Virus record (IMG/VR): IMGVR_UViG_3300042396_000450
Span: 47,624 to 111,623 of that record
Reading direction: 5' to 3' (one strand)
DNA: 64,000 nucleotides
From: a virus
This document shows positions 1-57,023 of the stretch, piece by piece. Made by a program: the position numbers and the translations under genes. Below the pieces are notes generated by a model. It ran no database searches, was not told the origin of the DNA, and saw nothing but the letters and a program-made list of their open reading frames with translations. Position 1 is the stretch's first letter, and each line of letters starts with the position of its first letter.

Positions 1-191
1 AGATCACAGAATCTCACATTTAAATAATCTTCAACTAATCCATAATAACGTACTGTATTATAACCATTAGCTTTTAAATAAATACCAATATTGTGTAGTG
101 TAGCTGTTCTATCAGGTAATCCTTCTAATGGTGGTAATTTACCATTTAAAACATTATTAATAACGTCGCTAACTTGTTGTTTAGTTATCAT
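1..191 (-). CDS. Small hypothetical protein, 3' end beyond window
   Basis: The reading frame opens with ATG at 191-189, overlapping the stop of the upstream gene as ATGA, and stays open to the window edge (63 codons seen). The N-terminus (MITKQQVSDVINNV) resembles the starts of the proteins at 40784-41059 and 41056-41307 (MITKKDIRDWM, MFTKKDVRDWM), so it is probably a paralogue. The function is unknown and the C-terminus is not visible. Confidence 0.6.
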   Translation of the reverse strand, partial: MITKQQVSDVINNVLNGKLPPLEGLPDRTATLHNIGIYLKANGYNTVRYYGLVEDYLNVRFCD

Positions 192-436
192 AGTTTATCT
201 AATATGTCAAGGTAACTAAGTTGTGGTAATTCTTTAACAGCAGATAGATTTATTATTTCTACATTACAAGTTTTCTCTAACCAAGCTATTGTAGTCATAT
301 TAAATGGGTTAGCTATAGCGGACATTTGATTATAAGTACGTCCACTTAATCTAATTGATGTAGGTCTATTACCACTTTCTTTATAAGAACATCGAATTAA
401 ATTGCGGATATATGATTGAGCTTCTTGTAAGTTCAT
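188..436 (-). CDS. Small hypothetical protein with C-terminal SYLDILDKL tag
   Basis: This is an 82-residue protein of unknown function with basic residues in its first half. Its last residues are LSYLDILDKL, nearly identical to the ends of the proteins at 40784-41059 and 41056-41307, although the rest of the sequence differs. It is coupled to the next gene by an ATGA overlap and transcribed away from the tail genes, whose first ATG lies only 36 bases off. What the shared tail does is not known. Confidence 0.7.
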   Translation of the reverse strand: MNLQEAQSYIRNLIRCSYKESGNRPTSIRLSGRTYNQMSAIANPFNMTTIAWLEKTCNVEIINLSAVKELPQLSYLDILDKL

Positions 437-472
437 ATATTATAATTACTCATATACACTATTTTCTTACTC
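437..472. promoter_or_regulatory. Divergent intergenic region with TATAAT and TTTTCTTAC
   Basis: Only 36 bases separate two divergent start codons. On the plus strand TATAAT is at 441-446, a possible -10 box for the tail genes. The recurrent 9-mer TTTTCTTAC (462-470) sits two bases before the ATG at 473, where a Shine-Dalgarno sequence would be expected and is missing. The promoter assignment is an inference. Confidence 0.35.
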
Positions 473-3400
473 ATGACAACAACCTATAGTTCGGGTAAAT
501 TACAACTTACATTTAATTCAGGTAATGTATCTGTAGTTAATGGTTCAGGTAACTTAGGAGTTACAGGAACTTACTATATCTCTATTCAAGGTCGGAATCT
601 AATTGGACTTAATCTGAATAGTACATTAGTTCCAGTTACTTTAACTACAACATCTACATTAACTATAACATTACCATCATTAGCTAGTGGTGAAACTTGG
701 TCTGACATAGTTATATCAGCATCAACTACTAATAACGTATCTGCCTTAACTCAAGTAATGGTAGTTAATAGTGCTGATTTTAATTCGCCAGTTATATTAA
801 CTAGTGTTGAGTTGTTCAAGCTAACTACACTTGCTCGTACTGTAGCTAACTCTGCTGCATTACCAGCAACACCAATTCAGGGACTTATAAGATACATAAC
901 TAACCTCAACTACTACTATGAATACGATGAATACAGTACAGCAACTGTAGATAACTTAACTGTATTAACTGCAACTACTGGTAGATGGCTTAGAGTAGGT
1001 GCAATTAGTACGTATATAACTGATACTACAGCTACAGATGGATGTGATCAAGATGTTCGCACACCTAATCTAATTGTTAATGCACCATCATATACTTGTG
1101 ATGGTAGTAAAGGTGATGGAGTTACCTTCTGGTTACGTAATGAATTTAGCACTATTATTTCAAGTGGAACTAGAATTAGTTGTACTGTGCGATTATTTGA
1201 GGAAGATAAATCTCAATTGTTCGATAGTCTCCTAATACTAGAACTACTTGGTTATGTTAATTTAATAACTGGAGTATTAGATGCTTCAGTTAGTAGTGGT
1301 GAAGTAACTTATCAACCTCGTAGTCAATGGTTAACATTACCAGAGGATCTCGACATTGGTTATGCTGCTGTAGTTAGAGTTAGTCCTAAATTCACCATTA
1401 CTGATTTAGATAACAATGTTCCATATCTAGCTAACTTAACTACATACGTTACATTTGCTCCAACTAGCGGTATCTATACTCCTGGTGTATTCGGCAACTT
1501 AATTTACAACGAATATGATAAGTGGCGCATTTATTCTGATGTTGGACTTAGTGTAATTAAGAGTAAGGGTAGTGGAATAGTTAATAATTATGAACTTAAT
1601 GATATATCCGCCGAAACTATAACAGGGTTAAGTTCTAATACCGCCAACCAGTATATTTTTCTTACTAGTAATGGTACTTCGTTCGCATCAACTACTAGTT
1701 CATTCGTTAGTGCAGTTAAGCGATGTGTAGTTAGTACAGTTAATGGTATAGGAACTCCAGTTAGTTATGGTAGCTTCGCGTTAAATAACACTAAGAAGTT
1801 ATCTGTAACTGTTAATTATCCAACTAGTGTTAGAAGTAATTATCCTGATGCTCTTATTGCAGGTTCTAGTAAAGGTAAGTTTAATGCAACTAATGTTGTT
1901 ATCTATATTAAGAATAGTAGTAATGCCGTATTCGTAACTGAAGTTAACATAACTCCATCTGCTAGTAATGATGTTTATGTACTTAATTATAGTGACTTTA
2001 CTAGTTCTACATTAGCAACACCATCTAGTAATTATGGTTTATATACACCATTAAGTGTAACTACTTCAACTCCATCTAACAGTAGTACATTTCCTACTGG
2101 TAGTTATGAAGTGTTTGTTGCATTTAAATACACTGGAGTTGTTACAGTTATTGATCATAGTGTTAGTGAGTTATATGAGATAACAAGTAACCTGAGTGAG
2201 TTATTCTCAACTAGTGCAACAGTATGGTATAGCGATAATGGTGTTCCTAGTAGTTTAATTGGTGAAGATGGTTCATATTATCTTAATTATGATAATGCTA
2301 ATATTTATAAGAAGGTTAATGATACTTGGAGTTTAGATGGAAATATTAGTGTTATTTCACCTTCATTTACTACTATTGCAGTTAGTGGACAAAGTAATGT
2401 AGTTGCAGATCAAACTAATGATAGTTTAACTCTAGTTGCAGGAACTGGTATTACATTAACTACTAATGCCACAACCGATGCTATTACTATTACTGGAACT
2501 AGCGTCACTAATACATTTAGTACAATAACTGTAGCTGGACAATCTGATATAGTTGCTGATAATGGAACTGATACATTAACTATTGCTGCTGGTAGTGGTA
2601 TTACCTTAACTACAAATTCTGCTACTGATACATTAACTATCGCAGGAACTGCTGTTAGTAATACATTTAGTACAATTGCAGTTAGTGGTCAATCTGATGT
2701 AGTAGCTGATAGTGCCAGTGATACTATTACGTTAGTTGCTGGAACTGGAATGACTATTACAACTAACACCACTACAGATACTATTACTTTTGAAAGTAGT
2801 GGTGTTAATGTTGATGTTACGCGAACTTCTACAATGTCTAATAGTATTGGAACTGGTAGTAAGACGTTTACTTATACTGCTAGTTCTAACTTAGGATGGT
2901 TAGTTAGTACGAGATTGCGTGCTGCGTATGATGTTTCTAACTATATGGAAGGTGTAGTTACTGCTGTTAGTAGTACCTCAGTTACTATTACATCAGATAA
3001 TGCAGTTGGTAGTGGAACTTATACTAGTTGGAACATAACAATAGCTGGAGATAAAGGTTCTACTGGAAGTGCTGGTAGTTTAAATGCCGCATCTGGATTT
3101 ATATTAACTCCTGTTGGAAGTCCCATTACTACATCAACTAACGAAGTTGGTTTCTATGTCGATAGCACTGATAACTTATTTAAAACTAGAGACGTTAATA
3201 ATGGTACAGTTAGAACATTAGCATCATTAAATAGAGTTCAAGCATTTACTCAAACACAATATGCTACACCTGTTATTAATAATTCTGCTACTGGGACAGT
3301 AACTTTAGACGGTAGTGCTAGTAATGTTTTCATACTAACTCTAACTGGAAACCTGACTCTGACCATGAACAACATTCAAGTTGGAGCAACTTATATCATC

Positions 3401-3574: not shown

Positions 3575-3576
3575 TC

Positions 3577-10131: not shown

Positions 10132-10239
10132 TTAATGTATCCAATCTAATAATTCATTACAAGTAATAACACCGTTACATTGATAAACGTAGTTAAGTTA
10201 TCTAAAGTACCACTTAACTTACATCAAGTTATCTATCAT
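10132..10239 (-). pseudogene. Possible degraded small ORF
   Basis: The frame opens at an ATGA overlap with the upstream gene, reads six codons, hits TAA, and then resumes in the same frame after a second stop with a coding-looking end (NYVYQCNGVITCNELLDWIH). It may be a decayed gene filling the gap. The evidence is weak because the surviving segment is only 21 codons. Confidence 0.25.
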
Positions 10240-10646
10240 AGTGCATTTAATATTGATTCATATGTAACAGGTGTATCATCATCATCATCTAATTCATTAT
10301 CACCATCAAAGTCATCTAATATTTTTTCTAATTCAGCATACATATTATGATATTGATCGTAATCTTTATTACGTTTAGCTGCTTTTAGTAAATCATAGAA
10401 ACTAGTGTATTTAGAATTAATAACATAGTCTACATAATCATAAGCCTCACTATCATCATTTAACCATTCTCGTAATTCATCATAACTATAATTATAACTA
10501 CCGCAAGTGTCGTCATTAGCAATAATATCAAGCATTCTATCATCTGAATCATAGAATGATATATTACTACCTAATTGATAATATAACTCTTGTGCTTTAT
10601 CAGTAGATCTACTAGATAAATATGCTGCAAATTCATAAATGTCCAT
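10236..10646 (-). CDS. Acidic hypothetical protein with C-terminal tag-like end
   Basis: This 136-residue protein is strongly acidic, with runs of Asp near residues 115-130 (NELDDDDDTP). It ends PVTYESILNAL, which fits the C-terminal peptide pattern shared by several small proteins here. I do not recognise a domain. Strong negative charge suggests a DNA-mimic or inhibitor type role, but that is speculation. It lies downstream of a terminator that closes the thyA unit. Confidence 0.65.
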   Translation of the reverse strand: MDIYEFAAYLSSRSTDKAQELYYQLGSNISFYDSDDRMLDIIANDDTCGSYNYSYDELREWLNDDSEAYDYVDYVINSKYTSFYDLLKAAKRNKDYDQYHNMYAELEKILDDFDGDNELDDDDDTPVTYESILNAL

Positions 10647-12068: not shown

Positions 12069-12728
12069 TTATTTAATTAACTCTTGAAAGTCTACACTAT
12101 CCCAGATTAATCTAGTAGTACCATAATAATAATCATAGTTATTACTATAGTAGTTAAACATCTTATTTAATAACTCACTATCTAACTCAGTTAAACCTAA
12201 CTTAGTTAACGTAGAACGACATAACTTAGTTGCTCTAGTTACATCTTTCTGATCATCTACAATTACTTCTACTTCACATAATCCACCGTAACCTGCATTA
12301 ATATCAACACAGATATTAAACTTATCAGTCTTATATTCACGTCTACATCTACTCCATTTAGATTGATATGTTAAACCTAGACTTAATAGTATGTTATCTA
12401 ACTCATGTAATGATTCACCTCTAATTAGTTCTTTCTCTACACGAACTACACCATTATCAGCATCTTCAGTATTGTATTTGAAAATTAATAGTGTACCACC
12501 TTTATCGTCATATCTAGTTCTAATAGCTAACTTAGATGTAGTTAGTAATTCATTCTTAAATGACAGATTTAGTTTATCTGCTAATTTAACAAGACTCTCC
12601 TCTGTGTAAGAAAAATAGTGGTTAAGTTGATTGCTATCTACAATATCTACATTTGGATATAACGTAATGATGCGAGATTTAAGATCATCAACATCACTAA
12701 CTAATGCTTTAACTTCTACTTCAATCAT
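12069..12728 (-). CDS. CYTH / triphosphate tunnel metalloenzyme
   Basis: This 219-residue protein starts MIEVEVKAL, the ExExK signature of CYTH proteins. It then has IRTRYDDKGGTLLIFKYN, GVVRVEKEL and, near residue 165, LCEVEVIVDD, giving the alternating charged strands of the tunnel. Family members are triphosphatases (including RNA triphosphatase and thiamine triphosphatase) or class IV adenylyl cyclases. Which reaction applies cannot be read from sequence alone. With the phage PNK and ligases an RNA 5'-end role is possible (inference). Confidence 0.75.
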   Translation of the reverse strand: MIEVEVKALVSDVDDLKSRIITLYPNVDIVDSNQLNHYFSYTEESLVKLADKLNLSFKNELLTTSKLAIRTRYDDKGGTLLIFKYNTEDADNGVVRVEKELIRGESLHELDNILLSLGLTYQSKWSRCRREYKTDKFNICVDINAGYGGLCEVEVIVDDQKDVTRATKLCRSTLTKLGLTELDSELLNKMFNYYSNNYDYYYGTTRLIWDSVDFQELIK

Positions 12729-12731
12729 TTA

Positions 12732-13259
12732 TCAATTACCTATTACTTGTACTAAACCGCGATAACTTTGACGTGCATCATTAAGTGCATTATGAATTGG
12801 TAACTCATTCTCTAATCGCTCATAATAATCAGGTAAATTACGAGCTAATCTAAATGAAGTTACATCTAATAATGGATATGGTGAAAATTCCATTATTGAG
12901 TCAAATTCAACCCATGTTTCCAGTGCTAATGTAATGAAGTTAGTTTCAACTGGAAATGGAACATCTGCAAATAACTTAATGTTAGGATATCTCTTATTTA
13001 AATCAATCCAATCATAGATAAAATCCCTAGTTAATTCTTCACTATTAGATTCACCTAGATGTGGTGTTACATTAACTTCAATCCAATCTACATCTTTTTT
13101 CTTACCTACACGTTTAGCATACTTATAATTAGCTTCAGAATACTTGTATATTTCCTCAATTACATTACCATTACTATCTCCAATTACAATACCATAACTG
13201 AAGGCATCACCATATAAACCCATTGATTCAACATCTAATACCGCAACAATGTAACTCAT
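12732..13259 (-). CDS. DEDD-family 3'-5' exonuclease
   Basis: This 175-residue RNase H-fold exonuclease has motif I VAVLDVESMGL (D-x-E) and a C-terminal motif HNALNDARQSYRG (H-x(4)-D, DEDDh type). The length suits a stand-alone exonuclease domain. It may act on DNA or RNA ends. It follows the CYTH gene with a 3-base gap and lies in a nucleotide-metabolism operon. Confidence 0.75.
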   Translation of the reverse strand: MSYIVAVLDVESMGLYGDAFSYGIVIGDSNGNVIEEIYKYSEANYKYAKRVGKKKDVDWIEVNVTPHLGESNSEELTRDFIYDWIDLNKRYPNIKLFADVPFPVETNFITLALETWVEFDSIMEFSPYPLLDVTSFRLARNLPDYYERLENELPIHNALNDARQSYRGLVQVIGN

Positions 13260-15415: not shown

Positions 15416-16001
15416 CTTGCACTAATCCTCTCTTAATTCCTTCAGTAATACAATACTCAGTTATATAGCTGTATTCAGGTAACATCTCATCAATGTACAC
15501 AGCTATCTTATTTCTAATTGATGAAGCACTAACTTGTTTCCACATCGGTGGAGCAGTACCATTAACTAGATGAGAATAGACCAGCATACTACCAGCTAAT
15601 TTATCAATAGCTTTAGCATACTTAGCTTCAATAGTTAACTGGTTCTTAAATTCATACCATAGATTAGAATACTCAGCTATGAGAGATGATTCAAGGTAAG
15701 AAAAAAGGTTGAGTGCCGCCAATTCCTCTTGAGTATCGTGTTCATCAGTATGGTCATCAAAGTTTACATCACCCGCATTTATTTCACCTAGATCGTGTAC
15801 TAGACATAACTTAATGATGTGCAGTAGTTGATCATTAGTTACTCGGTCATCTAGCATAGTTACACACATCATAACCATAGTAAACGTATGTTCAGCTACA
15901 TTCTCACGTCTACTACCAGTTACATTCATTATCTGACGTACTGTATCTACTGATGCGGCGGATTTGAGGATGAAGTCAATTGTCATAAGTTCCTTTAACA
16001 T
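15408..16001 (-). CDS. HD-domain 5'-deoxynucleotidase-like hydrolase (YfbR/HDDC2 type)
   Basis: This 197-residue protein has the HD superfamily metal ligands: ENVAEHTF (His), LCLVHDLGEINAGD (His-Asp) and AKAIDKLAG (Asp). The arrangement matches YfbR/HDDC2 5'-nucleotidases that dephosphorylate dNMPs such as dUMP or dTMP. It may help balance nucleotide pools with ThyA and MazG. A copy of the 9-mer (15696-15704) lies inside the coding region. Confidence 0.78.
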   Translation of the reverse strand: MLKELMTIDFILKSAASVDTVRQIMNVTGSRRENVAEHTFTMVMMCVTMLDDRVTNDQLLHIIKLCLVHDLGEINAGDVNFDDHTDEHDTQEELAALNLFSYLESSLIAEYSNLWYEFKNQLTIEAKYAKAIDKLAGSMLVYSHLVNGTAPPMWKQVSASSIRNKIAVYIDEMLPEYSYITEYCITEGIKRGLVQDE

Positions 16002-16004
16002 TAC

Positions 16005-16061
16005 TTGTTATTTCTAACTATTTATGTTTATAATGAAAAAGACAGCGAGTAAACTGTCTTA
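16005..16061. promoter_or_regulatory. Possible promoter plus hairpin between divergent genes
   Basis: On the plus strand TTGTTA (16005-16010) and TATAAT (16029-16034) are 18 bases apart, a fair promoter for 16088-16939. A hairpin (AAGACAG/CTGTCTT, about 16040-16061) follows. Read on the minus strand it is followed by TTTTTC and would stop antisense transcripts crossing the plus gene. Confidence 0.45.
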
Positions 16062-16087
16062 TCATTTATATATTGAGTTGATTAACT

Positions 16088-16939
16088 ATGGACATTGTAA
16101 CACCTGTTAAGTCTGATAATGGAATTACCTTTTATATTTCCAATGATGGTAAACAAACAGGAATTAGCATATCAGGATTAGAACGGTTACTAGGGTTAAG
16201 TGAAAAGGGGAGTTTATTTTCTGGTAAGAATAAATTAATGGAAGATTGTCAAAATGGGACTCCCCGCGAAACAATACCAGAATCTCTACAACCTATATGG
16301 GGTAAGGTTTTCAACACCTCCGCGCTAGGATCTGATAATGCAATGATTATCACTGAAGAAGCTGCTGTAACAATTATTAGTTATTACGCAATTGAACGTA
16401 AAAATATAACAGCTACTAAGTCATTATTTCTTTTTGCTAAACAAGGTTTTAATTGTTGGGTTAAAGAAATTACACATTTTACAGTAGAAGAACAAGACAA
16501 TGAGATATTGCGTACTTTACGCAAACTAGATCAAAATTTAGAAATAGTTAAAACTAAAGTAGAAAAACTAGAACGTCTTGATGGTATTACTGTAACTTTA
16601 TATCCAGGAGCTAAACATATTAATGATGGATTAGCATCAACTAATCAATTAATGCTAATAGATGATTGTCTTTATTCTGGTAAAGATTGGTTAACATCTA
16701 AAGGTGTTAAATTAACTAGAGGTGGTTATATTAGCTTTGGACATCTAGTAGCTCAAACCTATAAAACATTAACAGGTAAAAATCCTCAAATTAAATATGT
16801 TACTAAACCTCGCAAAAATAAACCTAATAAAACAGTTAAAGTTAAAGAAGGTTGGGGTTATCGTAATATTGACTTCTATATAATGGAAGCAGCTTATGAG
16901 AAGTTTAAAGATAAGATGTTTCCTAATATAGAAGATTAA
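16088..16939 (+). CDS. Regulator-like protein (antirepressor-type), isolated unit
   Basis: This 283-residue protein's N-terminal 100 residues (FYISNDGKQTGISISGLERLLGLSE...) resemble the DNA-binding or decision domains of phage antirepressor-like proteins seen in cyanobacteria and their phages. A possible coiled coil (TLRKLDQNLEIVKTKVEKLE) follows at about 150-170, then a basic C-terminal domain with KPRKNKPNK. It is transcribed alone, against its neighbours, with a promoter and terminator of its own, which suits a regulator. The molecular target is unknown. Confidence 0.55.
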   Translation: MDIVTPVKSDNGITFYISNDGKQTGISISGLERLLGLSEKGSLFSGKNKLMEDCQNGTPRETIPESLQPIWGKVFNTSALGSDNAMIITEEAAVTIISYYAIERKNITATKSLFLFAKQGFNCWVKEITHFTVEEQDNEILRTLRKLDQNLEIVKTKVEKLERLDGITVTLYPGAKHINDGLASTNQLMLIDDCLYSGKDWLTSKGVKLTRGGYISFGHLVAQTYKTLTGKNPQIKYVTKPRKNKPNKTVKVKEGWGYRNIDFYIMEAAYEKFKDKMFPNIED

Positions 16940-22347: not shown

Positions 22348-22644
22348 TTATTTAAACAACACTAACTTAACTAAACTAAACCAGTTCAAGTAGTATCTAT
22401 ACTTAAACTTAGTATCTGTAGCATTAAGTAACTTAACTAAGTTAAATCCAGTTAAATGAAACTCAATTAACTCACGTCTAGTTAACTCATTAATAAGTAG
22501 ATAACTTAACTTGAAGTTAACTAACTTATGTAATAACTCACTATTATTAGTTAATGAATATCTAACATTCTAATCAACGTTATTACCATCACTATCATAG
22601 AATAGTGTTGTTGAATTAATGGCGGGATTAAGTGTAACTATCAT
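22348..22644 (-). pseudogene. Small ORF interrupted by an in-frame TAG
   Basis: The frame begins at an ATGA overlap with the upstream stop and reads 24 codons (MIVTLNPAINSTTLFYDSDG...). It meets TAG at 22572-22570, then stays open in the same frame for 73 codons (NVRYSLTNNSELLHKLV...) up to TAA. Codon use after the stop (TTA, AGT, GTT, AAG) is like neighbouring genes. It is a recently broken gene or a readthrough case. Confidence 0.6.
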
Positions 22645-22955
22645 ACGCTTGTAATATCTCCAGTTTCTAAATCAATGTAATAAAAGTCATTATTAGTTTG
22701 ATTGTTAATTAAGTATTTGTCTACCGCATCATTAATGTAAACATCATTAACAGTTATACCAACATATTCATCTAAAACTAAGTTATCTGGATTACCCAAA
22801 TACATCCATTTAAGAATCTGATTAAATAGATTAACTGTAAAATCTATGTCGGTTGTACATTTATCATGCCATTGTTTTCTTACATAAATTTCACGTAATA
22901 CATATTTAGGTGTTTCTGGATATATCGTCCTATTAAACTTAAAACCTATTTTCAT
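22641..22955 (-). CDS. Hypothetical protein
   Basis: This 104-residue protein of unknown function ends in YYIDLETGDITSV. It has a basic N-terminus (MKIGFKFNRTIYPETPK), and a 9-mer copy at 22875-22883 is encoded within it. A hairpin separates it from the Rha-like gene upstream, and its stop overlaps the start of the interrupted ORF. Confidence 0.55.
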   Translation of the reverse strand: MKIGFKFNRTIYPETPKYVLREIYVRKQWHDKCTTDIDFTVNLFNQILKWMYLGNPDNLVLDEYVGITVNDVYINDAVDKYLINNQTNNDFYYIDLETGDITSV

Positions 22956-22962
22956 AATAACA

Positions 22963-22983
22963 GAGCTAGGGATTTCCTAGCTC
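22963..22983 (-). terminator. Hairpin terminator after Rha-like gene
   Basis: GAGCTAGG-GATTT-CCTAGCTC is a perfect 8-bp stem between the Rha-like gene and the next gene. The following minus-strand sequence is TGTTATT, a weak U-tract. Confidence 0.55.
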
Positions 22984-22991
22984 ACTAAGTT

Positions 22992-23573: not shown

Positions 23574-23670
23574 AACTCTAAATTTCTTAAGTGACTTTAA
23601 TTGACGTTAGTTATTGATGTTAGTTAAGTTAGTTTAGTGACATAACTTAGGTCGTGGTAACTAAATACTA

Positions 23671-23895
23671 TTAGTGATCTTTGTTCATCCAATAGTTATC
23701 ATCTTTCTGGATCATAAAGAACTCATTTATAAGTACCATTTTACCGCTACTTACATCGTATACCCTAATGAAATCATAGTCGTCACTATAATTATCTATT
23801 TAATCTTGTATTAAATGAAAGTCATTAGTGATGAACTTTAAACCACTTGTCGCACCAGGAGAATACTGATTGTAAGCAAATAATAAATATTGCAT
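23671..23895 (-). pseudogene. Small ORF interrupted by an in-frame TAA
   Basis: ATG at 23895 opens MQYLLFAYNQYSPGATSGL..., 31 codons long. TAA at 23802-23800 interrupts it and the same frame continues for 42 codons (IDNYSDDYDFIRVYDVSSGK...) to the next TAA. It resembles a widespread phage protein with a YLLFAY opening followed by a short 'what-it-reports' strand. Single-base inactivation is the simplest reading; readthrough is possible. Confidence 0.65.
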
Positions 23896-23923
23896 AATTA
23901 TTTCACCATTTTTCTTACCTTAA

Positions 23924-38212: not shown

Positions 38213-39279
38213 AATTTCATCAACTCCTCAAAATTCTTTAACAACAACTTAGATAGTGCTTCTTTAACTGACTTACTATGACCATCTCTAATTGAGAATA
38301 GGATAACTTTCCATTTGATGTTAGAGATAGCTATTGCAAACTGTTTCTTATCGGTGATTTTAGCGAACTCATTTAAATCATGTTCAATTAACTCACATAA
38401 CTTATTGTATTTAGTTAAGTAGTTATTGTAGATGCTACTAAATTCATGGAAGTAACTGATAAACTCATTACCTTCACCTGTTCTAACTAACTCTAATATG
38501 TCACGTTTGGTAACGCTTGATTTAATCCTATGATATTTAACATAATCATCGTGTTTTAATTTAACTCGTTTCCAAGTACACCATTCTACTATTACATAAC
38601 CTTCATTATGTAATCCATCTAACTTAACTAACTCATCTCTAACTTCATCTATAGTTAAACCATATTCAAGATAGTCAACTAACTTAAACGAAGTGAACTT
38701 AGGTTGTGCTATCGACTCCTCACGTAATGTAGTTCTATTTCTAACTCCAATTAAAGTTAATGAGTTACTACTATGTGATACAACTACTGGATTAAATGGT
38801 GTACATAACTCAAACATATACGTATAGTTAACATCAAAGTCATCTAATTTATATGATTCTTGCATAAATACAGTCCATGCAAGTTCAGCAAATGTAACAC
38901 TATAATCAAGTATAGTTCCACCAGCATCAGGAGATCCAGTAGTTGCAACTAACCATTCATCATTGTAGTAATACATAATGATTAGACTGCCATCTAACTT
39001 CTTATAAGCATAAGAGTTATCGAAGTCTATTTCTGCTGCACATGATTCACCATAGTTATAGAATCTATCAAATGGATATGCTACAACATTCCAATCATTA
39101 GCTTCATCTAATATTAATCCGCGACATTCAGTTACTATTGGATGATAATAGGGTGATGTAACATTCCAATAACATAATCCAACTAGATTAGGATATTTAG
39201 TATGTCGTCTAACTTGTATTCCTAATTCGGCGGTTAAGTCTTTTAATGACTTAGTTCGGAGATATTCTTGTACTAGCAT
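38203..39279 (-). CDS. RNA ligase, T4 Rnl1-like
   Basis: This 358-residue protein has the ligase nucleotidyl motif I AYKKLDGSLIIMYYY (Lys adenylation, K-x-D-G-S), a motif 3-like YMFELC, motif IV NEGYVIVEW and motif V WKRVKLKHDDY. T4 Rnl1 is 374 residues. It would seal RNA, classically tRNA cut by host anticodon nucleases, after PNK action. Confidence 0.88.
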   Translation of the reverse strand: MLVQEYLRTKSLKDLTAELGIQVRRHTKYPNLVGLCYWNVTSPYYHPIVTECRGLILDEANDWNVVAYPFDRFYNYGESCAAEIDFDNSYAYKKLDGSLIIMYYYNDEWLVATTGSPDAGGTILDYSVTFAELAWTVFMQESYKLDDFDVNYTYMFELCTPFNPVVVSHSSNSLTLIGVRNRTTLREESIAQPKFTSFKLVDYLEYGLTIDEVRDELVKLDGLHNEGYVIVEWCTWKRVKLKHDDYVKYHRIKSSVTKRDILELVRTGEGNEFISYFHEFSSIYNNYLTKYNKLCELIEHDLNEFAKITDKKQFAIAISNIKWKVILFSIRDGHSKSVKEALSKLLLKNFEELMKLCK

Positions 39280-39464
39280 ATTGGTTGAATAAAGTTATCC
39301 CAACTACGATTTATTGAATAATTATCAGCTATATGTTTTAATTGTCGCTTAGTTTGTTGTCTGATTCTATGACGAATGTTACAAAGACGAGATTGATTAT
39401 AATATCTATTATCATTTGGACAACTTCCAAACTTAATTAACACGCGTTTATTGTTAATCATCAT
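39273..39464 (-). CDS. Small basic protein
   Basis: This 63-residue protein is rich in Arg, Lys, Asn and Cys (NIRHRIRQQTKRQLKHIADNY). It could bind nucleic acid. It overlaps the RNA ligase gene by 7 bases. Confidence 0.5.
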   Translation of the reverse strand: MMINNKRVLIKFGSCPNDNRYYNQSRLCNIRHRIRQQTKRQLKHIADNYSINRSWDNFIQPIC

Positions 39465-39469
39465 TAAAA

Positions 39470-39493
39470 AGTGCAGCTATTACTAACTGCACT
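39470..39493 (-). terminator. Rho-independent terminator
   Basis: AGTGCAG-CTATTACTAA-CTGCACT forms a 7-bp stem, followed on the minus strand by TTTTTAATG. It is at the end of the unit 39501-40784 and before the small basic protein gene. Confidence 0.75.
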
Positions 39494-40577: not shown

Positions 40578-40784
40578 CTATCCTAATTGTTCTAAATAAA
40601 CTGGTTCAACTACGTCATTAATCTTAACTAAAGTACATTTAACATTTAGTGCTAATTGTATTTCAGCTACTTCACCATATAATACCACACTTTCAACAGT
40701 AGCTGTAGTATTTAGAAAGTGAACTCTATCGCCTTTAGTTAAGGTTTGACCATATTCACGTAACACGGTTGTCATTATCCACAT
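40578..40784 (-). CDS. Small beta-barrel-like hypothetical protein
   Basis: This 68-residue protein (YGQTLTKGDRVHFLNTTATVES) has alternating strands suggesting an SH3/KOW-like fold. It overlaps the next gene by one base. The function is unknown. Confidence 0.5.
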   Translation of the reverse strand: MWIMTTVLREYGQTLTKGDRVHFLNTTATVESVVLYGEVAEIQLALNVKCTLVKINDVVEPVYLEQLG

Positions 40785-41059
40785 TAGAGTTTCTCCAGTA
40801 TGTCAAGGTAATTTAATTGAGGTTCATTAGTATCAGGTAACTCATTATATATATGCCACTCTACATCTTCAAAATGTCTATCAAAGTCATTTTCTAATTC
40901 ATCCTCATTGTCTTCTAAATCAGAAAAATCAGCAGATATCCTCCTAACACTGTAATGATTTATTTGAGCTTGAGTTAATCTATTATCTATTTCCTCAATA
41001 TTTCCACCATATACATTATGTTCAATCATCCAATCTCTAATATCTTTTTTAGTTATCAT
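40784..41059 (-). CDS. Small protein with C-terminal NYLDILEKL tag
   Basis: This 91-residue paralogue of 41056-41307 has an N-terminal helix (KKDIRDWMIEHNVYGG), an acidic middle and the end QLNYLDILEKL. It overlaps the upstream gene stop by 4 bases. It is part of a family with 1-191 and 188-436. The function is unknown. Confidence 0.65.
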   Translation of the reverse strand: MITKKDIRDWMIEHNVYGGNIEEIDNRLTQAQINHYSVRRISADFSDLEDNEDELENDFDRHFEDVEWHIYNELPDTNEPQLNYLDILEKL

Positions 41060-41307
41060 AATTTATCCAGTATGTCAAGATAGTTAATAGTAGGTTCACC
41101 GTCTGGTAAATTGTTATAAATACTATTTCCGATCTCTCTAAAGTAAGCATCAAACTTAGATTCCCAATTATCATCAAAGTTACATGATATACTTCTAAGT
41201 GTTGTATCACCTTTATCTCTTAGTCGTTTGTCTACTTTTTGAACACAATCAACATTATATACATTGTTATTAATCATCCAGTCTCTAACATCTTTCTTAG
41301 TAAACAT
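41056..41307 (-). CDS. Small protein with C-terminal NYLDILDKL tag
   Basis: This 83-residue paralogue of 40784-41059 has KKDVRDWMINNNVYN, a middle with Cys and Arg, and the end TINYLDILDKL. The two genes are adjacent, overlap at ATGA, and lie directly downstream of ClpS. The function is unknown. Confidence 0.65.
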   Translation of the reverse strand: MFTKKDVRDWMINNNVYNVDCVQKVDKRLRDKGDTTLRSISCNFDDNWESKFDAYFREIGNSIYNNLPDGEPTINYLDILDKL

Positions 41308-41309: not shown

Positions 41310-41582
41310 TTATCTCTCAACAGTTACAGTTAAACCTTCAGCTACCAATTGATCTCTACTTAATTCAGCAAACGGTTCGGTATATTCTCCTATTAGAGCT
41401 TTACCATTAAGATGAGCATCCATCATAATTTGATAACTCTTATCATTACTGAATCCCATAACACTACTTAATATCTCTACTACAACTTCAGCAGGAAATA
41501 TGCTGTCATCATGTAGAATCAACTTAACCATTGGAGCATTGTTAACAAATGTAAATGGCTCTCTATCTAATACTGCATTCAT
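41310..41582 (-). CDS. ClpS-like proteolytic adaptor
   Basis: This 90-residue protein matches the ClpS adaptor fold: VKLILHDDSIFPAEVVVEILSSV (the HDD and PxxxV region), GFSNDKSYQIMMDAHLNGKALIGEYTEPFAE, and a C-terminal strand LTVTVE. ClpS delivers N-degron substrates to ClpAP/ClpCP. A phage copy suggests redirection of host proteolysis (inference). The next two downstream genes encode tagged small proteins. Confidence 0.75.
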   Translation of the reverse strand: MNAVLDREPFTFVNNAPMVKLILHDDSIFPAEVVVEILSSVMGFSNDKSYQIMMDAHLNGKALIGEYTEPFAELSRDQLVAEGLTVTVER

Positions 41583-43371: not shown

Positions 43372-43767
43372 TTACTCTATGTCTAATAAATCATCTACAT
43401 CTTCTACTACATCTTCTGCAACTGGAACATCAGTTAATTGATTTACAACTAATGCAAGTGATTCACCTTTAGTTTTCCAATCAACTAAACTACTAATTAA
43501 CTTCAATAACTCAACATTAGTATAATTAAGTTCCTTAAACTCATCAACTATACGTGTTGAAGCATTCATAACTTCAGGATATAATGTGAGTATTGCTGCT
43601 AGTATTAATTCAAACTTACTCTTAATGTCAGTACCACATGACTCAGCATACTTGAGGATACCTGTTTTACTACGTTTAGGAACACCTGCTATTAAGGCTG
43701 CTATCTTTTTTCTAGTTTCATCATCCAATCCCAACTCAACCAATGAATTTTCTATGTTATTAGCCAC
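43372..43767 (-). CDS. Hypothetical protein, GTG start
   Basis: This protein of about 131 residues begins at GTG (VANNIENSLVELGLDDET); a longer frame would run further into the opposite gene. It is helical and acidic (DVVEDVDDLLDIE at the end). It overlaps the 5' end of the plus-strand gene 43754-44107. The function is unknown. Confidence 0.5.
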   Translation of the reverse strand: MANNIENSLVELGLDDETRKKIAALIAGVPKRSKTGILKYAESCGTDIKSKFELILAAILTLYPEVMNASTRIVDEFKELNYTNVELLKLISSLVDWKTKGESLALVVNQLTDVPVAEDVVEDVDDLLDIE

Positions 43768-44107
43768 GATTGATTTCTCCAAAATTATAAGTGATCTTGC
43801 GCCTATCCTATCTGCTGCTGTTACGGGAATCGGCACTTATTTTCTTACCCGTAACAATAATGGTGATAAACTATCTCAACGTGAATACGACTATATAACT
43901 CAAGAGCGTAATCGTATTCAAGTATTAATAAATGATGAAATAACTCAGATACGTAAAGATAAGGATGAATTACGTACTGAATTGATTGAGATACGTAATA
44001 AGTTAACTGAGTTAGAGAAAGTTGAAGATGAATGTCAACTTAAACTATATCAGGCTCAAGTTATTATTACTCAACTACGGGATCATAACGCATCTAATAT
44101 GTCTTGA
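43754..44107 (+). CDS. Single-TM coiled-coil protein
   Basis: This protein of about 117 residues starts at MLLATIDFSKIISDL. A hydrophobic segment (LAPILSAAVTGIGTYFL) is followed by a long coiled coil (ERNRIQVLINDEITQIRKDKDELRTELIEIRNKL). It is the only plus-strand gene for about 28 kb upstream and 20 kb downstream. A spanin-, holin- or membrane-scaffold-like role is possible (inference). Its start lies inside the minus gene. Confidence 0.55.
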   Translation: MLLATIDFSKIISDLAPILSAAVTGIGTYFLTRNNNGDKLSQREYDYITQERNRIQVLINDEITQIRKDKDELRTELIEIRNKLTELEKVEDECQLKLYQAQVIITQLRDHNASNMS

Positions 44108-44234
44108 TAACTAACATTAGATGATGTAACATTATCATCTAATAAATCAGCGTATGTTAGATGAAGATAATCCCGTAAATCTTCTCTATACTTATACCTA
44201 CTCGTCGAAAATATCCACCTTCAAACTTAGTCAT
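44083..44234 (-). pseudogene. Frameshifted small ORF ending YQDILDAL
   Basis: ATG at 44234 opens MTKFEGGYFRRVG.... After about 14 codons the coding pattern moves by one base to another frame (YKYREDLRDYLHLTYADLL...) that ends SYQDILDAL-TGA. The total length, 152 bases, is not a multiple of three. The end fits the shared C-terminal peptide. A 1-base indel, a sequence error or programmed frameshifting would explain it. Confidence 0.55.
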
Positions 44235-47132: not shown

Positions 47133-48278
47133 CTAACCTTCTTTAACGAATGGATAATTAAAATCAATACGACCTTCTCTCATAGCTGCAATATCCCATC
47201 GTTCAGTTGTATTGCAAGTGAAGATTGTAATGATTTGAGGTAAACGAGTTTGTTCAAATGGTGTAATAGCTGTATAGACATTACCATCTAACCAAGATAA
47301 CATCTTCTCAGTTGCGCCATCATTATTAGATGTCCGACTTGGAGCTATGTTATCTGCATCATTAACAACTATGGCTATTTTAGATAGGTATGCTGGAGGT
47401 GTAAAACTTCTCATACTAGCACTATCCATGTTGATGATGATGTAACCTAGTTTAGATAACACTTCCTTACAATAGGAGTTACTCCAACTAGTTTTACCAA
47501 CACCGGGTTCTCCAGTTAATATTACATTGAGTTTATTAATCTCACCTAACTCAAGTTGTTTAACTTTATCATTAATAACATTAGTTAATTCAGCATTATT
47601 AACGAAACTACTTAATTCATAGTTAGCATTAGGATAACCAATTTGATAATTATCACTTGTTATATAAGCTGCTAAATTAGATGCAGCTTTATCAATGTAA
47701 CTATGTAATGTAGTTTCATCAGCAAAACTAACTCTAATACGCGGATTGTCCCCATATTGAGTATGGATAATACACGTTGCGTTATCCCATTTAACTTCGA
47801 TAGTTCCAACTAAAGTTAACTTAGCAACATCTACATTAACATCATGTGATAGAAATACTCTACGACTATCATCCCATACGTATTGAATAATACTATTAGG
47901 TAGACCAAGTAAATTAACTATTCGATAGATAATACTTAATTGAAGTAGGTCTAATATGTGAGGTTTATTATTGCTATTATTAACCTTCCCAGTATTACGA
48001 GTTGTATCATCTACACTAATGTAGTAGAACCCACCTTCATCTTCGATATTACACTTACTAGTTTCAACGATGAACGTATCCCAACTATCAGATACAGTTT
48101 CGCTAAATAGAGCAATAATATTAGCTATAGGATGTCTAGTTACATTGAACAATTCATTACTAACTGTAGATATAAACTTACCTGCATTCCAGAGATTAAT
48201 GCGCGATATATCAATCTCAGGAGTGAATATTTCCCAACCTTCAGCTACTAGTTGAGCAATTTCTGTTTGTTTAGACAT
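47133..48278 (-). CDS. AAA+ ATPase
   Basis: This 381-residue protein's AAA core is in the second half: NVILTGEPGVGKTSWSN (Walker A), IAIVVNDADNIAP (Walker B) and IITIFTCNTTERWDIAAMREGRIDF (sensor and arginine finger). The N-terminal 220 residues are specific. It could remodel a protein or DNA complex. It lies next to the two AAA/VWA pairs. Confidence 0.75.
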   Translation of the reverse strand: MSKQTEIAQLVAEGWEIFTPEIDISRINLWNAGKFISTVSNELFNVTRHPIANIIALFSETVSDSWDTFIVETSKCNIEDEGGFYYISVDDTTRNTGKVNNSNNKPHILDLLQLSIIYRIVNLLGLPNSIIQYVWDDSRRVFLSHDVNVDVAKLTLVGTIEVKWDNATCIIHTQYGDNPRIRVSFADETTLHSYIDKAASNLAAYITSDNYQIGYPNANYELSSFVNNAELTNVINDKVKQLELGEINKLNVILTGEPGVGKTSWSNSYCKEVLSKLGYIIINMDSASMRSFTPPAYLSKIAIVVNDADNIAPSRTSNNDGATEKMLSWLDGNVYTAITPFEQTRLPQIITIFTCNTTERWDIAAMREGRIDFNYPFVKEG

Positions 48279-48707: not shown

Positions 48708-49976
48708 CTAGATTTTCTCTCTATATGTACCACCACTCTGAAGACTAATGCGACGGAGATCCGCATTCTTACTATCTAATATGAAACTATGCAATTTAGC
48801 TCCTTTAAGCATAGACAATGTTATGTTACCAGCATAATCATCACCATCATTAACCACTACAAGATGTTTGTCCTTAGCACTTATTTGATTAGGATGTTCA
48901 GCAGCTATCTTATCTGCTTGAAGTAATGCCTCAACTATACAATTACCAACTTCAGTACCTCCTTCATTAAAACCCTCATTTTTAATAACTGAATTGAAGA
49001 AACTACTTATATCAGCATAATCAAATGGGAGAAAGTAGAATTTATGACAATGTTCCTCAAAGAAAGAGAAGTTGAGCCAACATTCGCCAGCATAAACACG
49101 TTTAACTAGGTTATATATAATCCCCATAGCTTTATAGTTCTTATTGGCAGAACGCATAGATGCACTATTATCAACTATTAAGTTAACAAATGGAATCTTG
49201 GATTGTTTTTCATACCTTTCATTAACATGACATTCATTCTCAATGATCCGCGAATTAAGTACATTGCGAGGTAGTATTAACTCTCTCGGTGGTATCTTAT
49301 GCAGTTCATCAAATCCAGTTATGGGACGACTACGAACTATATCTCCATTAACTTTACGTATTAATGTAGGAGTTGGTGCAGTAGAAAGCGCAGCTATCTT
49401 ATTCATAACAGCACTAACACGTAGTATCTCAGTCCAGGATTTGTCCAATTTAGCAGCACGATTTACGTCATTTACATCATTATTACCAGTTATCTTCATG
49501 TCAACTGAATCCATTGACTTAGCTGCTTCTAATTTCTTCTTAATACTAACTGCTAATTGTTTAGCTCTTCCTCTACTCATGTCTTGATCTTTATCAAGAA
49601 ACTTTATAGTATTAATAGCTTGTTCGAGGGGACTATCTCCTGGAACATCTACACCCATTATTTCTTTAATAAACTCCTGAGTATCAGTTTGAACCTTTAC
49701 GTCATGTTTATGCCATTCATCTTGAGCCTGACTTAGCTTGGTTACAGTTCCACCGCTAGGTAACTTATATTCACCATTAGACTCAGTATGTAGATTGCGA
49801 TAATTAGTATTACTTCTGATATGTTTAAGAGTAGTTAATTGACCACCACTCCACATATTAGCTAGATCCGTCACTAATTCTTCATCATAATGCGCGACAT
49901 TCATCTCACTTGTCATTTGACGTATTTCCCTTGGAAATACAGTGTAATAACTACTTGCTTCTGTTCTAATTGTCAT
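48708..49976 (-). CDS. VWA-domain protein (CobT-like), pair 1
   Basis: A protein of about 422 residues. The start is set at MTIRTEASSYY because the longer frame would cross a hairpin. A charged N-terminal half precedes a C-terminal von Willebrand A domain with MIDAS FVNLIVDNSASMRSANK (D-x-S-x-S). Partnered AAA/VWA genes act as chelatases (CobS/CobT, BchI/BchD) or MoxR-type chaperones. It is adjacent to 50015-51190. Confidence 0.75.
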   Translation of the reverse strand: MTIRTEASSYYTVFPREIRQMTSEMNVAHYDEELVTDLANMWSGGQLTTLKHIRSNTNYRNLHTESNGEYKLPSGGTVTKLSQAQDEWHKHDVKVQTDTQEFIKEIMGVDVPGDSPLEQAINTIKFLDKDQDMSRGRAKQLAVSIKKKLEAAKSMDSVDMKITGNNDVNDVNRAAKLDKSWTEILRVSAVMNKIAALSTAPTPTLIRKVNGDIVRSRPITGFDELHKIPPRELILPRNVLNSRIIENECHVNERYEKQSKIPFVNLIVDNSASMRSANKNYKAMGIIYNLVKRVYAGECWLNFSFFEEHCHKFYFLPFDYADISSFFNSVIKNEGFNEGGTEVGNCIVEALLQADKIAAEHPNQISAKDKHLVVVNDGDDYAGNITLSMLKGAKLHSFILDSKNADLRRISLQSGGTYREKI

Positions 49977-49983
49977 AGTAATA

Positions 49984-50004
49984 GTGGGGATAATACGTCC
50001 CCAC
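49984..50004 (-). terminator. Hairpin between AAA and VWA genes of pair 1
   Basis: GTGGGGA-TAATACG-TCCCCAC is a 7-bp stem separating 50015-51190 from 48708-49976. No strong U-tract follows, so it may attenuate or process rather than stop transcription. Confidence 0.5.
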
Positions 50005-50014
50005 ATAATGTTAA

Positions 50015-51190
50015 TTACTTAGTTACTGTTGCAGATGCTAATGCAGGAATTTCATTCATAGTTTTTCTAGCTTGATTACCTACCGTGTTAATAAGATCAT
50101 TTCTCTCTTTAACTAAACTATCTGGAATATTACTAACCTTAATAATTTCACCCTCCATAAGTTGAAGTGAATTAACTAGAGCAAATATAGATACAACATC
50201 TTTTTTCGCCTTATATTCATTAATCTTATCAACGGCTCTATCAAAGTGAGTCTTAAATGTATCAAGACTAGATTTAGCATCATTGTAAATCTTCTGTTGT
50301 TGTATTTCTTCTTCTAAGTTAGATAGAAGTGATTGATCCCAACTTGGAAGATAATTGAGTACATTAAGTTGTTCAATAGTAGCAACTGATTTATTACTCA
50401 GTAACGCCTGAGACTTAATCATATTAATAGTCCACATAAACATACGAGGACTAATAATACGACCTTCATTACCAGATTTCTCAGCTAGAGAACACAGAAT
50501 ACCTTGTAACTCGCTATCTAATTTAACTTCTTCACGAGAAATACGAGCTTCATCAATCTGAGCAATAGTTAACTTGCTATCATCATTCTTCTTATTACTA
50601 ATAGCACGAATTAATCTAGAATAATCACTACTATCATGACTATCCCATTCATGACGTACAATAATGAAACGTTGAAGAAACGCATCACATGAATTAACTT
50701 CAGATGGTGGTAATTCTTCTATACGAACATAAGGATTAACGTTAGTTGCTCCAACTAACAACCTATTAATACTCTTAACTACTTCGCCATTAAGTGTTAA
50801 TTGCTTATTAGTAATTATAGCTTTAAGTACGCTAAGTGCTTGAAAACTAGCATCTAACATCTCTTCATAAAAGAAGCTATGATTACGTAATATACTAGCT
50901 CCTACATTATAGTGAGCTAATGTAATGTCTTCCTTATCAGTCTTAGTAGTACGAGCTATTGCACCACCTTTAATTAAACTAGCTGTAGTCTCAGGATCAC
51001 ACTCTAACATTGCAGATGATCCATCAATGTTGTCAAATACAGCTTTAATCATCTCAGTTTTACCGTATCCTCCCTTACCATATAACATAAGAGGAATACC
51101 AGATACAACAGCTAATTCCATAGAGTTAGCAAATGTAGCGGTGTTAATAAATCCAGCGTTAGATAAAACGTTGTTTAAATTGAATGTCAT
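50015..51190 (-). CDS. MoxR/CobS-like AAA ATPase, pair 1
   Basis: This 391-residue AAA ATPase has Walker A LMLYGKGGYGKTEMIKAVF, FFYEEMLDASFQALS (Walker B-like), and ISPRMFMWTINMIKS as a sensor II-like segment. It is followed by a VWA gene, giving a MoxR-VWA or CobS-CobT-like pair. It is similar to 52342-53520, so the pair is duplicated. Confidence 0.78.
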   Translation of the reverse strand: MTFNLNNVLSNAGFINTATFANSMELAVVSGIPLMLYGKGGYGKTEMIKAVFDNIDGSSAMLECDPETTASLIKGGAIARTTKTDKEDITLAHYNVGASILRNHSFFYEEMLDASFQALSVLKAIITNKQLTLNGEVVKSINRLLVGATNVNPYVRIEELPPSEVNSCDAFLQRFIIVRHEWDSHDSSDYSRLIRAISNKKNDDSKLTIAQIDEARISREEVKLDSELQGILCSLAEKSGNEGRIISPRMFMWTINMIKSQALLSNKSVATIEQLNVLNYLPSWDQSLLSNLEEEIQQQKIYNDAKSSLDTFKTHFDRAVDKINEYKAKKDVVSIFALVNSLQLMEGEIIKVSNIPDSLVKERNDLINTVGNQARKTMNEIPALASATVTK

Positions 51191-51199
51191 GTGATTCTC

Positions 51200-52345
51200 C
51201 TAGATATGATTACGATATGTACCACCACTAGCAATAGATAACTTCTGTAAGTTATAATTACTGCTATCTAATATAAAACTATGTAACTTAAATCCATCTA
51301 AATCAGGTAGAGTTAAGTTACATTCATCTTGACCATCATTAATTACAATTAGTTGTTTATTAGTTGATATTACACCTCTAGACTTACTAATAGCCTCTTT
51401 AATACACCTCTGAACATCAGTACCCCCTTTATCAAATGATGTATGATAGATAGCATTCCAGATACTAGTAACATCTGAATCCTTAGTTACGTGATACCAA
51501 TCGAAACAAGTTCTCTCAAAGTAAGAAAAAAGTAGTTCACACTCGCCCGATTGGACACGCTTAATTATGTTGAATATGATACCAAGAGCCTTATTCATCT
51601 TGTTATCACGTTGCATAGAACCACTAACATCACATATTAGCGTTATAAATGAAAGTTTATCCTCCTTCCGATATCGTTCAATAATGTGAGATTCATTATT
51701 AATGATGCGATAACTGAGATAATTAACTGGATTAATCAACTCAATTGGATTGATTAGATTAAGTTCATCAAATCCGCGTATAGGTCTAGTTTCGCAGTAT
51801 TCACCAGTAGAATCGGCGATCATAGTATTACTAGTATCTATGATACCTAACTTATCAAGAGTGTCACTAGCACGTAATACCTCAGCTAATTTATAACTGA
51901 TTTCACCAGATAGAAGTAACTTCTCATCGGCGGATCTACGTCTCAGTGATTTAACAGTTTCCTTAATACTCTTAACCTTTTTTCTTACCTCATGATTATT
52001 ATTGAATATTGGTAATGTTAATTCACTATTACTATTATCATCACCAGTTTCACCATTAGCTAATAACTCAAGTATGTTAAATACTTGTTCTAATGGAGAT
52101 CCCGATAAACTACTAGCTAATGATGGTACTTTCTCTAGGAAAGATTGAACATTGACTTCATAATCAATGTTATCTATACACTGTTGCTGCATATATTCAA
52201 CTGAAGTTAATGTACCTCCAGTTAACATATTAAACATATCAGTAACTAAAGTAGGACAATAGTTATAAATGTCGAATTTAGCAGCAACTACATCCATTTC
52301 ATCAGTAGTTGGAGTAACTGCATCTAGATGTGCGATAGTTCTCAT
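51200..52345 (-). CDS. VWA-domain protein (CobT-like), pair 2
   Basis: This 381-residue protein's C-terminal VWA domain has MIDAS ITLICDVSGSMQRDNKMNK (D-x-S-G-S). A common N-terminal helical part with 48708-49976 (ESHIIERY / ECHVNERY) shows that the two are paralogues. It overlaps its partner gene by 4 bases. Confidence 0.78.
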   Translation of the reverse strand: MRTIAHLDAVTPTTDEMDVVAAKFDIYNYCPTLVTDMFNMLTGGTLTSVEYMQQQCIDNIDYEVNVQSFLEKVPSLASSLSGSPLEQVFNILELLANGETGDDNSNSELTLPIFNNNHEVRKKVKSIKETVKSLRRRSADEKLLLSGEISYKLAEVLRASDTLDKLGIIDTSNTMIADSTGEYCETRPIRGFDELNLINPIELINPVNYLSYRIINNESHIIERYRKEDKLSFITLICDVSGSMQRDNKMNKALGIIFNIIKRVQSGECELLFSYFERTCFDWYHVTKDSDVTSIWNAIYHTSFDKGGTDVQRCIKEAISKSRGVISTNKQLIVINDGQDECNLTLPDLDGFKLHSFILDSSNYNLQKLSIASGGTYRNHI

Positions 52346-53520
52346 AGTTGAATTGGAGTTAATAACTTATCTAGTTTTATTGCAACTTCATTTAACAGAG
52401 ATTTAAACTGCAACTTAACTTCATTGTATTTAACTTCAGTATCATCATCATACGTAACTGTAGTTAGAAACTCATCATATAACTTAGTTATAGATAAATG
52501 AAGTGTTTGTAAATGCCAATATAATTCCAAGTTATTAAAATCAAAATTAGTTGATTCTTCATACATTTTCTTAACTTTAACTAATCTACTACTAAAGTTA
52601 TCTAACTTTTCATTAGATACCTGTCTCAATTCAATCTCCTCAATTGCTTCATCAACTTCATCCCAATCAACGCTCCAGTAACTTAGATAATCAATAACTC
52701 TGAAATCACATCTCTCAACTACATTAGACCCACGCAATAATGCAGCACTTTTAATTAATCGCACTGTCCATTGAAATGCTCTAGGACTAACAGTATTACC
52801 ACTATTAGCACTATCTTCAGCTAACTTAGCTAATAGTCGCCATAAGTCAATATTAAATTCAATTAATTTAACATCATTACGCCATTTATCAATGTCAGTT
52901 AACTCAAATTGAACAACTGGTAATTCGTTAACTGATGGATATAATGCAATATAATCGTCAGCATTATGAGATTTCCAACCATGTTCAACTATCATGAACC
53001 TCTGAAGAAATGCAGCACAACTATTACGTTGATTCTCACGTACTGTAGATGTTACAGATGTGGGATTAATGTTAGTCGCACATACTAGAATCTTACAATT
53101 ATTAATGATCTCATCACCATTAATATGTATTTTCTTACCTGTAATCACAGCCTTCAGGAAACTAAGTGCATTGAAACTCGCATCTAATACTTCTTCTAAC
53201 ATGAAGTAGTCATGCTGTAGTAGCGAATTAGCCACATTGTAATACGCTTCAGTTAAACTACCACCTTCTTGATTAATGGTTCTTGCAATTGCGCCACCTT
53301 TAATAGCAGCACTAGTTGTTTCAGGATCACATTCAAGCATTCCGAAACGTCCATTGAACAGAGATAATGCACTAATTAACATCTCTGATTTACCATATCC
53401 ACCTTCACCATGATAGATGATTGGGATGTCAGCTAATACGCTCAACATAAATGTATCGGCAAACTCATCTACATTAATAAATCCATCATTATTGAGCTTA
53501 TTGATTAAGTTATCTAACAT
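52342..53520 (-). CDS. MoxR/CobS-like AAA ATPase, pair 2
   Basis: This 392-residue protein has Walker A IIYHGEGGYGKSEMLISAL and MLEEVLDASFNALSFLKAVI. It closely parallels 50015-51190 (AKLAEDSANSGNTVSPRAFQWTVRLIKSAAL versus the same region). It is preceded by AATAGGAG before its ATG. A chaperone-like role on a metallo-enzyme or virion complex is inferred. Confidence 0.78.
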   Translation of the reverse strand: MLDNLINKLNNDGFINVDEFADTFMLSVLADIPIIYHGEGGYGKSEMLISALSLFNGRFGMLECDPETTSAAIKGGAIARTINQEGGSLTEAYYNVANSLLQHDYFMLEEVLDASFNALSFLKAVITGKKIHINGDEIINNCKILVCATNINPTSVTSTVRENQRNSCAAFLQRFMIVEHGWKSHNADDYIALYPSVNELPVVQFELTDIDKWRNDVKLIEFNIDLWRLLAKLAEDSANSGNTVSPRAFQWTVRLIKSAALLRGSNVVERCDFRVIDYLSYWSVDWDEVDEAIEEIELRQVSNEKLDNFSSRLVKVKKMYEESTNFDFNNLELYWHLQTLHLSITKLYDEFLTTVTYDDDTEVKYNEVKLQFKSLLNEVAIKLDKLLTPIQL

Positions 53521-56392: not shown

Positions 56393-56420
56393 TTCTAACT
56401 CCAATAACTACAAGTGAACT

Positions 56421-56457
56421 ATTAGTTAATTGAGTTAAGGTACATCAATTAACTAAT
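56421..56457. repeat. 12-bp inverted repeat
   Basis: ATTAGTTAATTG and CAATTAACTAAT are 13 bases apart in the gap between two small genes. There is no U-tract, so the role is unclear; it may be a processing hairpin. Confidence 0.5.
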
Positions 56458-56473
56458 ACATGATCTACATCAA

Positions 56474-56761
56474 CTAAACTAATGTGAACTTAGTAAATGT
56501 AAGTTTACCATCATTTACATTAGGTACGATAACTTCATCACCTTTAACTAAAGATTTAATACCTCGTTTACGCTTACCTATATCAATAGATAACGTATCT
56601 TTAATTAACTTAACTTTGCGAGACTTAGTGTAACTCAAGTTAATAGCATTCTCTAATTGCTCTCTATTAAGAAGTGCATTAAACTCTTGATATCTTAATG
56701 TACAGTTAGCAGGTAGAATGGAAACAATTGCGGCATTTAGATTAAGTGCGAAGTAAATCAT
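56474..56761 (-). CDS. Small hypothetical protein
   Basis: This is a 95-residue basic alpha/beta protein (TKSRKVKLIKDTLSIDIGKRKRG). The function is unknown. Confidence 0.5.
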   Translation of the reverse strand: MIYFALNLNAAIVSILPANCTLRYQEFNALLNREQLENAINLSYTKSRKVKLIKDTLSIDIGKRKRGIKSLVKGDEVIVPNVNDGKLTFTKFTLV

Positions 56762-56858
56762 GTTATCTCCAGTTAGAATGAGTTAATTGAACAGTAGTTA
56801 AATAATGTTAATTAAGTGCATTATAATTGCAACTTAATAAATGAGTTAAAGATGTTAA

Positions 56859-57023
56859 TCATAACAGATTTAGAATGTCTTTGTATGATGTAGGTTGTTT
56901 AACTTGATGTTTGTTTAATTGACGTATAGCAAATCTCCCTAATCTATCAAAAGTGACAAAGGTTAAGTTAGTGTTCTCTAAATCAACATCAGGTAAAGTA
57001 ACTTTAGTAGCCCACTTATTCAT
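56859..57023 (-). CDS. Small protein with C-terminal SYKDILNLL tag
   Basis: A 54-codon ORF (MNKWATKVTLPDVDLE...) overlaps the stop of the upstream gene. It ends TSYKDILNLL, matching the C-terminal peptide shared by several other small proteins. The function is unknown. The 97 bases to the next gene hold no further ORF. Confidence 0.6.
   Translation of the reverse strand: MNKWATKVTLPDVDLENTNLTFVTFDRLGRFAIRQLNKHQVKQPTSYKDILNLL

Follow-up and report, generated by a model that had tools for sequence, protein, structure and literature searches.

At least seven small proteins of a freshwater virus with a likely cyanobacterial host end in the same 10-residue tail, although they comprise about five types of protein body. 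The tail has the consensus [ILVT]-[NST]-Y-x-[DS]-I-L-[DEN]-x-L and is found at the extreme C terminus. It is conserved as a peptide while its codons drift, and at one locus the body above it has been exchanged in a relative.

Genome and Tagged Genes

The stretch of DNA that was analyzed (the window, 64,000 nt) corresponds to positions 47624–111623 of a 111,623-bp viral record. On the + strand lie the genes for terminase, major capsid, tape measure, and further structural proteins. Most of the − strand within the window encodes replication and nucleotide metabolism proteins together with many small unknowns. By capsid protein, the closest named relatives are the Pseudanabaena phages Pam2 and PA-SR01 (∼26% identity), and the gene layout resembles theirs; from these two features the host is likely to be cyanobacterial. 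One relative at the level of the genus, L140, covers the tagged loci (queried with Sak4, capsid, MoxR, F, and A/B). Its Sak4-like protein is 89% identical to that of the window.

Six tagged C termini had been listed in a preliminary description, and upon re-reading of the gene ends all were found where it had placed them, on the − strand. A seventh tagged gene, C, begins inside the window, and its 3′ end falls shortly beyond the window boundary; its start overlaps the end of D (ATGA). The tagged proteins have no Pfam, PHROGs, or NCBIfam match at the usual cut-offs, nor any similarity to a known adaptor family in these collections.

Table 1. Tagged genes and associated features. Positions are those of the window unless marked as record.
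Feature	Position	Strand	Length	Description
A	41056..41307	−	83 aa	Ends INYLDILDKL; L140 ortholog retains NYLDILDRL
B	40784..41059	−	91 aa	Ends LNYLDILEKL; paralog of A
C	record 47563-47814 (= L009:8563-8814); 5′ part = window 1..191	−	83 aa	Ends VSYLDILNAL
D	188..436	−	82 aa	Ends LSYLDILDKL; body unrelated to others
E	44083..44234	−		Decayed tagged gene, ends VSYQDILDAL
F	10236..10646	−	136 aa	Very acidic, DDDDD linker, ends VTYESILNAL; body unrelated to others
G	56859..57023	−	54 aa	Ends TSYKDILNLL; short unrelated body
ClpS adaptor homolog, phage-encoded	41310..41582	−		Directly upstream of the A-B pair
Structural proteins sharing an N-terminal peptide	record 12441-12872, 15958-16587, 16587-16868, 22409-23681, 23842-24195, 29217-29486, 38752-39477 (L007-L009)			

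Two further features of the window were recorded. At 48708–53520, a MoxR-like ATPase paired with a probable VWA protein is encoded twice in tandem, and this duplicated MoxR-VWA module had no match in PADLOC. At the end of the record, an FGE-sulfatase domain (Pfam PF03781) is represented by its C-terminal part (63636–63884), the sequence of which resembles the variable ends of targets of diversity-generating retroelements.

Statistics and Distribution of the Tail

For counting, the strict motif [NST]Yx[DES]IL[DEN]xL was used. Among the 161 called genes of the record it occurs in six intact genes, in each case at distance 0 from the stop codon, as well as in one frameshifted copy, and it is absent from the interior of all proteins. 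The chance expectation, for a motif that was chosen after the data had been seen, is ∼4e-5 at the 161 called C termini and 0.009 anywhere. Because of this choice, a comparison without a motif was added. Among 11,628 pairs of C-terminal 10-mers, a BLOSUM62 score of ≥25 was reached by 12, of which 10 are tag pairs; interior offsets of 20–40 residues from the end, taken as a control, gave 0–1 such pairs. This motif-free comparison, which took in every C terminus of the record, singles out the tail and little else, and a control with the reversed pattern gave 0 matches. A chance origin of the shared tail is ruled out by the end-to-end comparison and the reversed and interior controls.

The C-terminal pattern, strongly enriched in this phage, has no match in the more distant phages of the PA-SR01 kind (PA-SR01 itself and four records of 142–148 kb with related capsid genes). 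Two codon-limited scans of 2.9 million viral contigs in IMG/VR found no tag outside this phage lineage. In cellular genomes, a pattern that fixes Ile as ATA, and would miss hosts with other codon use, gave three isolated single matches (Veillonella, Bhargavaea, and Sulfurimonas), about the number estimated for chance. As far as codon-limited patterns tell, the tag appears to be lineage specific.

Other shared terminal peptides were noted. In PA-SR01, about 8–10 proteins start with M[KQE]HF[AV]xF or nearly so (L231-L233; e.g., 4111, 4481, 24377, 46923, 49207, and 103596), and a similar HF.NF is seen at C termini (19531 and 55817); this related phage thus has a shared terminal tag of its own, distinct from the one described here. 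In the present record, proteins of the structural module have in common an N-terminal peptide of the kind M-x-[IL]-L-x-D...FAR..G.KDKK.RK. Glycine-rich hydrophobic stretches often come after this peptide, which is possibly a virion-targeting signal of ejection-type proteins.

Relatedness and Turnover of the Bodies

The bodies were compared with the last 12 residues cut off. Those of A and B are 40% identical. The protein that is swapped in at the B locus of L140, here called X, has relatives in C (z = 9.6) and in the E of L140 (z = 9.1); the similarity of A/B to C is weak (p ∼0.02). A MxTK start is common to A, B, C, E, and X, and LPD precedes the linker in A, B, C, and X. By these features, A, B, C, and E resemble diverged paralogs, and the four may have had one ancestor. 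No body similarity to the rest of the set, or to each other, was detectable for D, F, and G. The word "unrelated" in the preliminary description, which had set apart the A/B pair, fits these three genes and overstates the case for the A/B paralogs and for C and E, which are linked via X. Grouped in this manner, the body types would be A/B, C/E, D, F, and G, and by sequence comparison the tag extends beyond any single detectable family. Most of the bodies are acidic (pI 4–6); D and G are basic, and the remainder are acidic or near neutral.

All three of the tagged loci that are present in L140 keep the tail, and at no intact orthologous locus compared does a homolog have another end. The B locus of L140 has the same flanks, a MITK start, and the end LNYLDILEKL around a different body, which is closer to C and E. 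Within the species, B bodies differ by up to ∼14% and their tails are invariant, and the Sak4-like protein near B is essentially identical; L018 is without B. Gene E is intact in L010 and L013 (93 aa) and in L140 (196 aa, ending VSYQSILDAL). It has a stop codon in L012, and in the present record, as in several others from the species, a deletion has left only a remnant of it. The frameshifted tagged protein of the preliminary description does have the tail end, and is better described as a gene decayed here, with the same remnant or a stop codon elsewhere in the species. Judging from this decay, the function of E is dispensable. A convergent ORF on the + strand (43586–44107), conserved in L140 and with a coiled-coil-like C-terminal half, overlaps the E tag with its last codons, and the overlap may constrain the codons of this tag for another reason. 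Taken together, the sequences present the pattern of accessory genes in which the body can be exchanged and the end is kept.

The codons of the tag vary considerably. Leucine is encoded in the tag copies by CTG, CTT, TTA, CTA, CTC, or TTG, tyrosine by TAC or TAT, and aspartate by GAC or GAT, with the residues kept. The A tag differs from that of L140 by three synonymous changes (TAT/TAC, GAC/GAT, and CTG/TTG) and one change from K to R, and the tag of X differs from that of B by CTT/TTA and GAC/GAT with no change in residue. Such comparisons of codons demonstrate conservation of the tail, and selection on it, at the level of the protein.

Structure of the Tail

In sequence, the tail looks like a short amphipathic helix that caps itself and follows a mostly polar linker. 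This reading rests on established helix-capping rules. The N, S, or T would be the N-cap, and the D or S three residues on would complete a capping box; the hydrophobic residue before the cap, together with the Ile at N4, would form a hydrophobic staple, and the Y, I, L, and L would lie along one face of the helix. In both AlphaFold models, residues 76–82, exactly the tag, form a separate helix after a coil, at low confidence and from shallow alignments. The mean pLDDT of 48 and 57 lends weak support to helix and linker, and the amphipathic (hydrophobic) moment of the tag is only moderately high (rank 12–47 of 161 C termini); both count against a docking function.

Discussion

The preliminary description had proposed a docking, targeting, or degradation signal. 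That the shared C terminus is a functional peptide signal is supported by its conservation as protein with synonymous drift, the exchange of a body, the presence of several body types, and the strict C-terminal position. On balance, with a probability slightly better than even, the tail serves as a modular docking peptide, kept by selection and acting in trans, and its carriers are small accessory proteins that change fast. These proteins, encoded on the − strand among genes for replication and nucleotide metabolism, would each consist of a variable body, a short and mostly polar linker, and a C-terminal helix. Selection acts on the tail as protein, and the tail is portable between bodies, as observed at one locus and as D, F, and G imply. 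It would then form a helix, and one shared partner would bind the Y/I/L/L face, bringing each body to the same machine, in the manner of other terminal recruitment tags, and new bodies would be recruited by duplication and exchange beneath a constant tail. The docking reading is weakened by the dispensability of E, by a genus-level comparison that rests on one relative, and by the possible descent of A, B, C, and E from one ancestor, which could account for much of the sharing of the tag.

Common ancestry is also the core of a possible, but not probable, alternative, in which all of the tagged proteins belong to a single family that is old and diverges fast, and the tail, as a structural helix of their shared fold, packs within the protein or a dimer. 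Indeed, A-B and C-E-X are detectably related, the MxTK start is shared by A, B, C, E, and X, most of which also have LPD before the linker, and a weak similarity connects A/B to C. Such a family would have to include D, F, and G, whose bodies have no detectable similarity. Moreover, the segments before the tail are mostly polar (DDDDDTP, TNEPQ, and DEASST), unlike a packed core, and the C-terminal 10-mers are far more alike than the remaining protein.

If the tail is a docking peptide, the leading guess for its partner, held with little confidence, is the host Clp protease with the phage ClpS, in an adaptor-like use. Clp is a candidate because A and B follow clpS. The preliminary observation that the tagged pair sits right after ClpS was correct, and the order clpS, A, B recurs in L140, but of the seven genes only two are adjacent to it. 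Phages seldom encode ClpS, with two weak matches among 50,697 phage records; among solved structures, the phage protein is closest to plastid ClpS1. The docking tail of SspB is likewise C-terminal. Analogous to the scheme proposed here, Clp adaptors (SspB by its tail, and cyanobacterial NblA and ClpS) are small and deliver clients to an AAA+ protease, although no sequence relation between them and the tagged proteins was found. Small Clp adaptors, NblA and ClpS among them, operate in cyanobacteria (PMC7966870), which makes docking on Clp a plausible idea. A bolder form of the docking reading, which we regard as rather unlikely, would have one C-terminal helical plug carried by a rapidly exchanged set of small early proteins. 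Each body would seize a different host or defense protein, and all would dock on a single machine, which could be the host Clp protease with the phage ClpS as its helper.

An unlikely alternative, slightly more so than the last, is that the tail is a C-terminal capsid-targeting sequence. It would bind the prohead scaffold, and its carriers would be packaged and then injected in the way of the T4 internal proteins. Those proteins share a conserved targeting sequence of 10 residues, and apart from it their bodies are diverse (PMC3012670, PMC9026906). As in the present set, the T4 sequence (on IPI, IPII, IPIII, and Alt) is a conserved terminal peptide of about 10 residues on small, diverse, non-essential proteins, and it has a Y-x-[DE]-[FI]-[IL] core after Thr or Ser. 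The T4 tag MKTYQEFIAEA aligns, as TYQEFIAEA, with SYQDILDAL, and targeting in T4 depends mainly on residues 4 and 7, equivalent to the Y and I here. A candidate scaffold gene, proposed from its position and composition, lies shortly before the major capsid gene. However, a likeness over nine residues is too short for significance. The T4 tag is N-terminal and is cleaved by gp21 from basic virion proteins, whereas the tail described here is C-terminal and is found on mostly acidic bodies, far from the pI of ∼9.6 of IPII and IPIII; no cleavage site was found. Furthermore, no protein of the structural module carries the tag, and the peptides shared in that module are different and N-terminal. The encapsulation peptides of bacterial microcompartments (PduP and CcmN) differ in being ∼18 residues long, of another sequence, and directed to cellular organelles.

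It is quite improbable that the tail is a C-terminal degradation signal, which would give the tagged early proteins a short life via host Clp proteases. The free C terminus with its hydrophobic last residue, the small, early-type proteins, and the clpS gene adjoining two tagged genes are consistent with such a signal. Known C-terminal degrons of the ssrA kind are simpler than this pattern, which spans eight positions and holds Y, I, L, and L constant; in addition, ClpS reads N termini, and five of the seven tagged genes are not near clpS. Finally, it is barely conceivable that the tail is a DNA- or RNA-level element (a recombination joint, translational coupling, or a promoter) read as protein, despite the exchange of a body between conserved ends, the overlapping ATG that often follows the tag, and the TTGACA in several tags, since synonymous codons differ at most positions with the residues constant, which rejects a promoter or recombination element, E, F, and G are without TTGACA, and the ATGA overlap is automatic when a codon ending in A precedes TGA.

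Terminal tags that gather diverse proteins are a known kind of signal. No description of this tag was found in the literature searched, in which its sequence, its C-terminal site on phage accessory proteins, and the exchange of bodies beneath it are undescribed. Shared terminal tags show which of the unknown small proteins of a phage act together, and a single peptide offers a handle on their common partner. With the tag as a simple criterion, additional members can be recognized in related genomes. If it recruits its carriers to a protease or a replication machine, phages would have a previously unseen means of directing effectors whose set can change.
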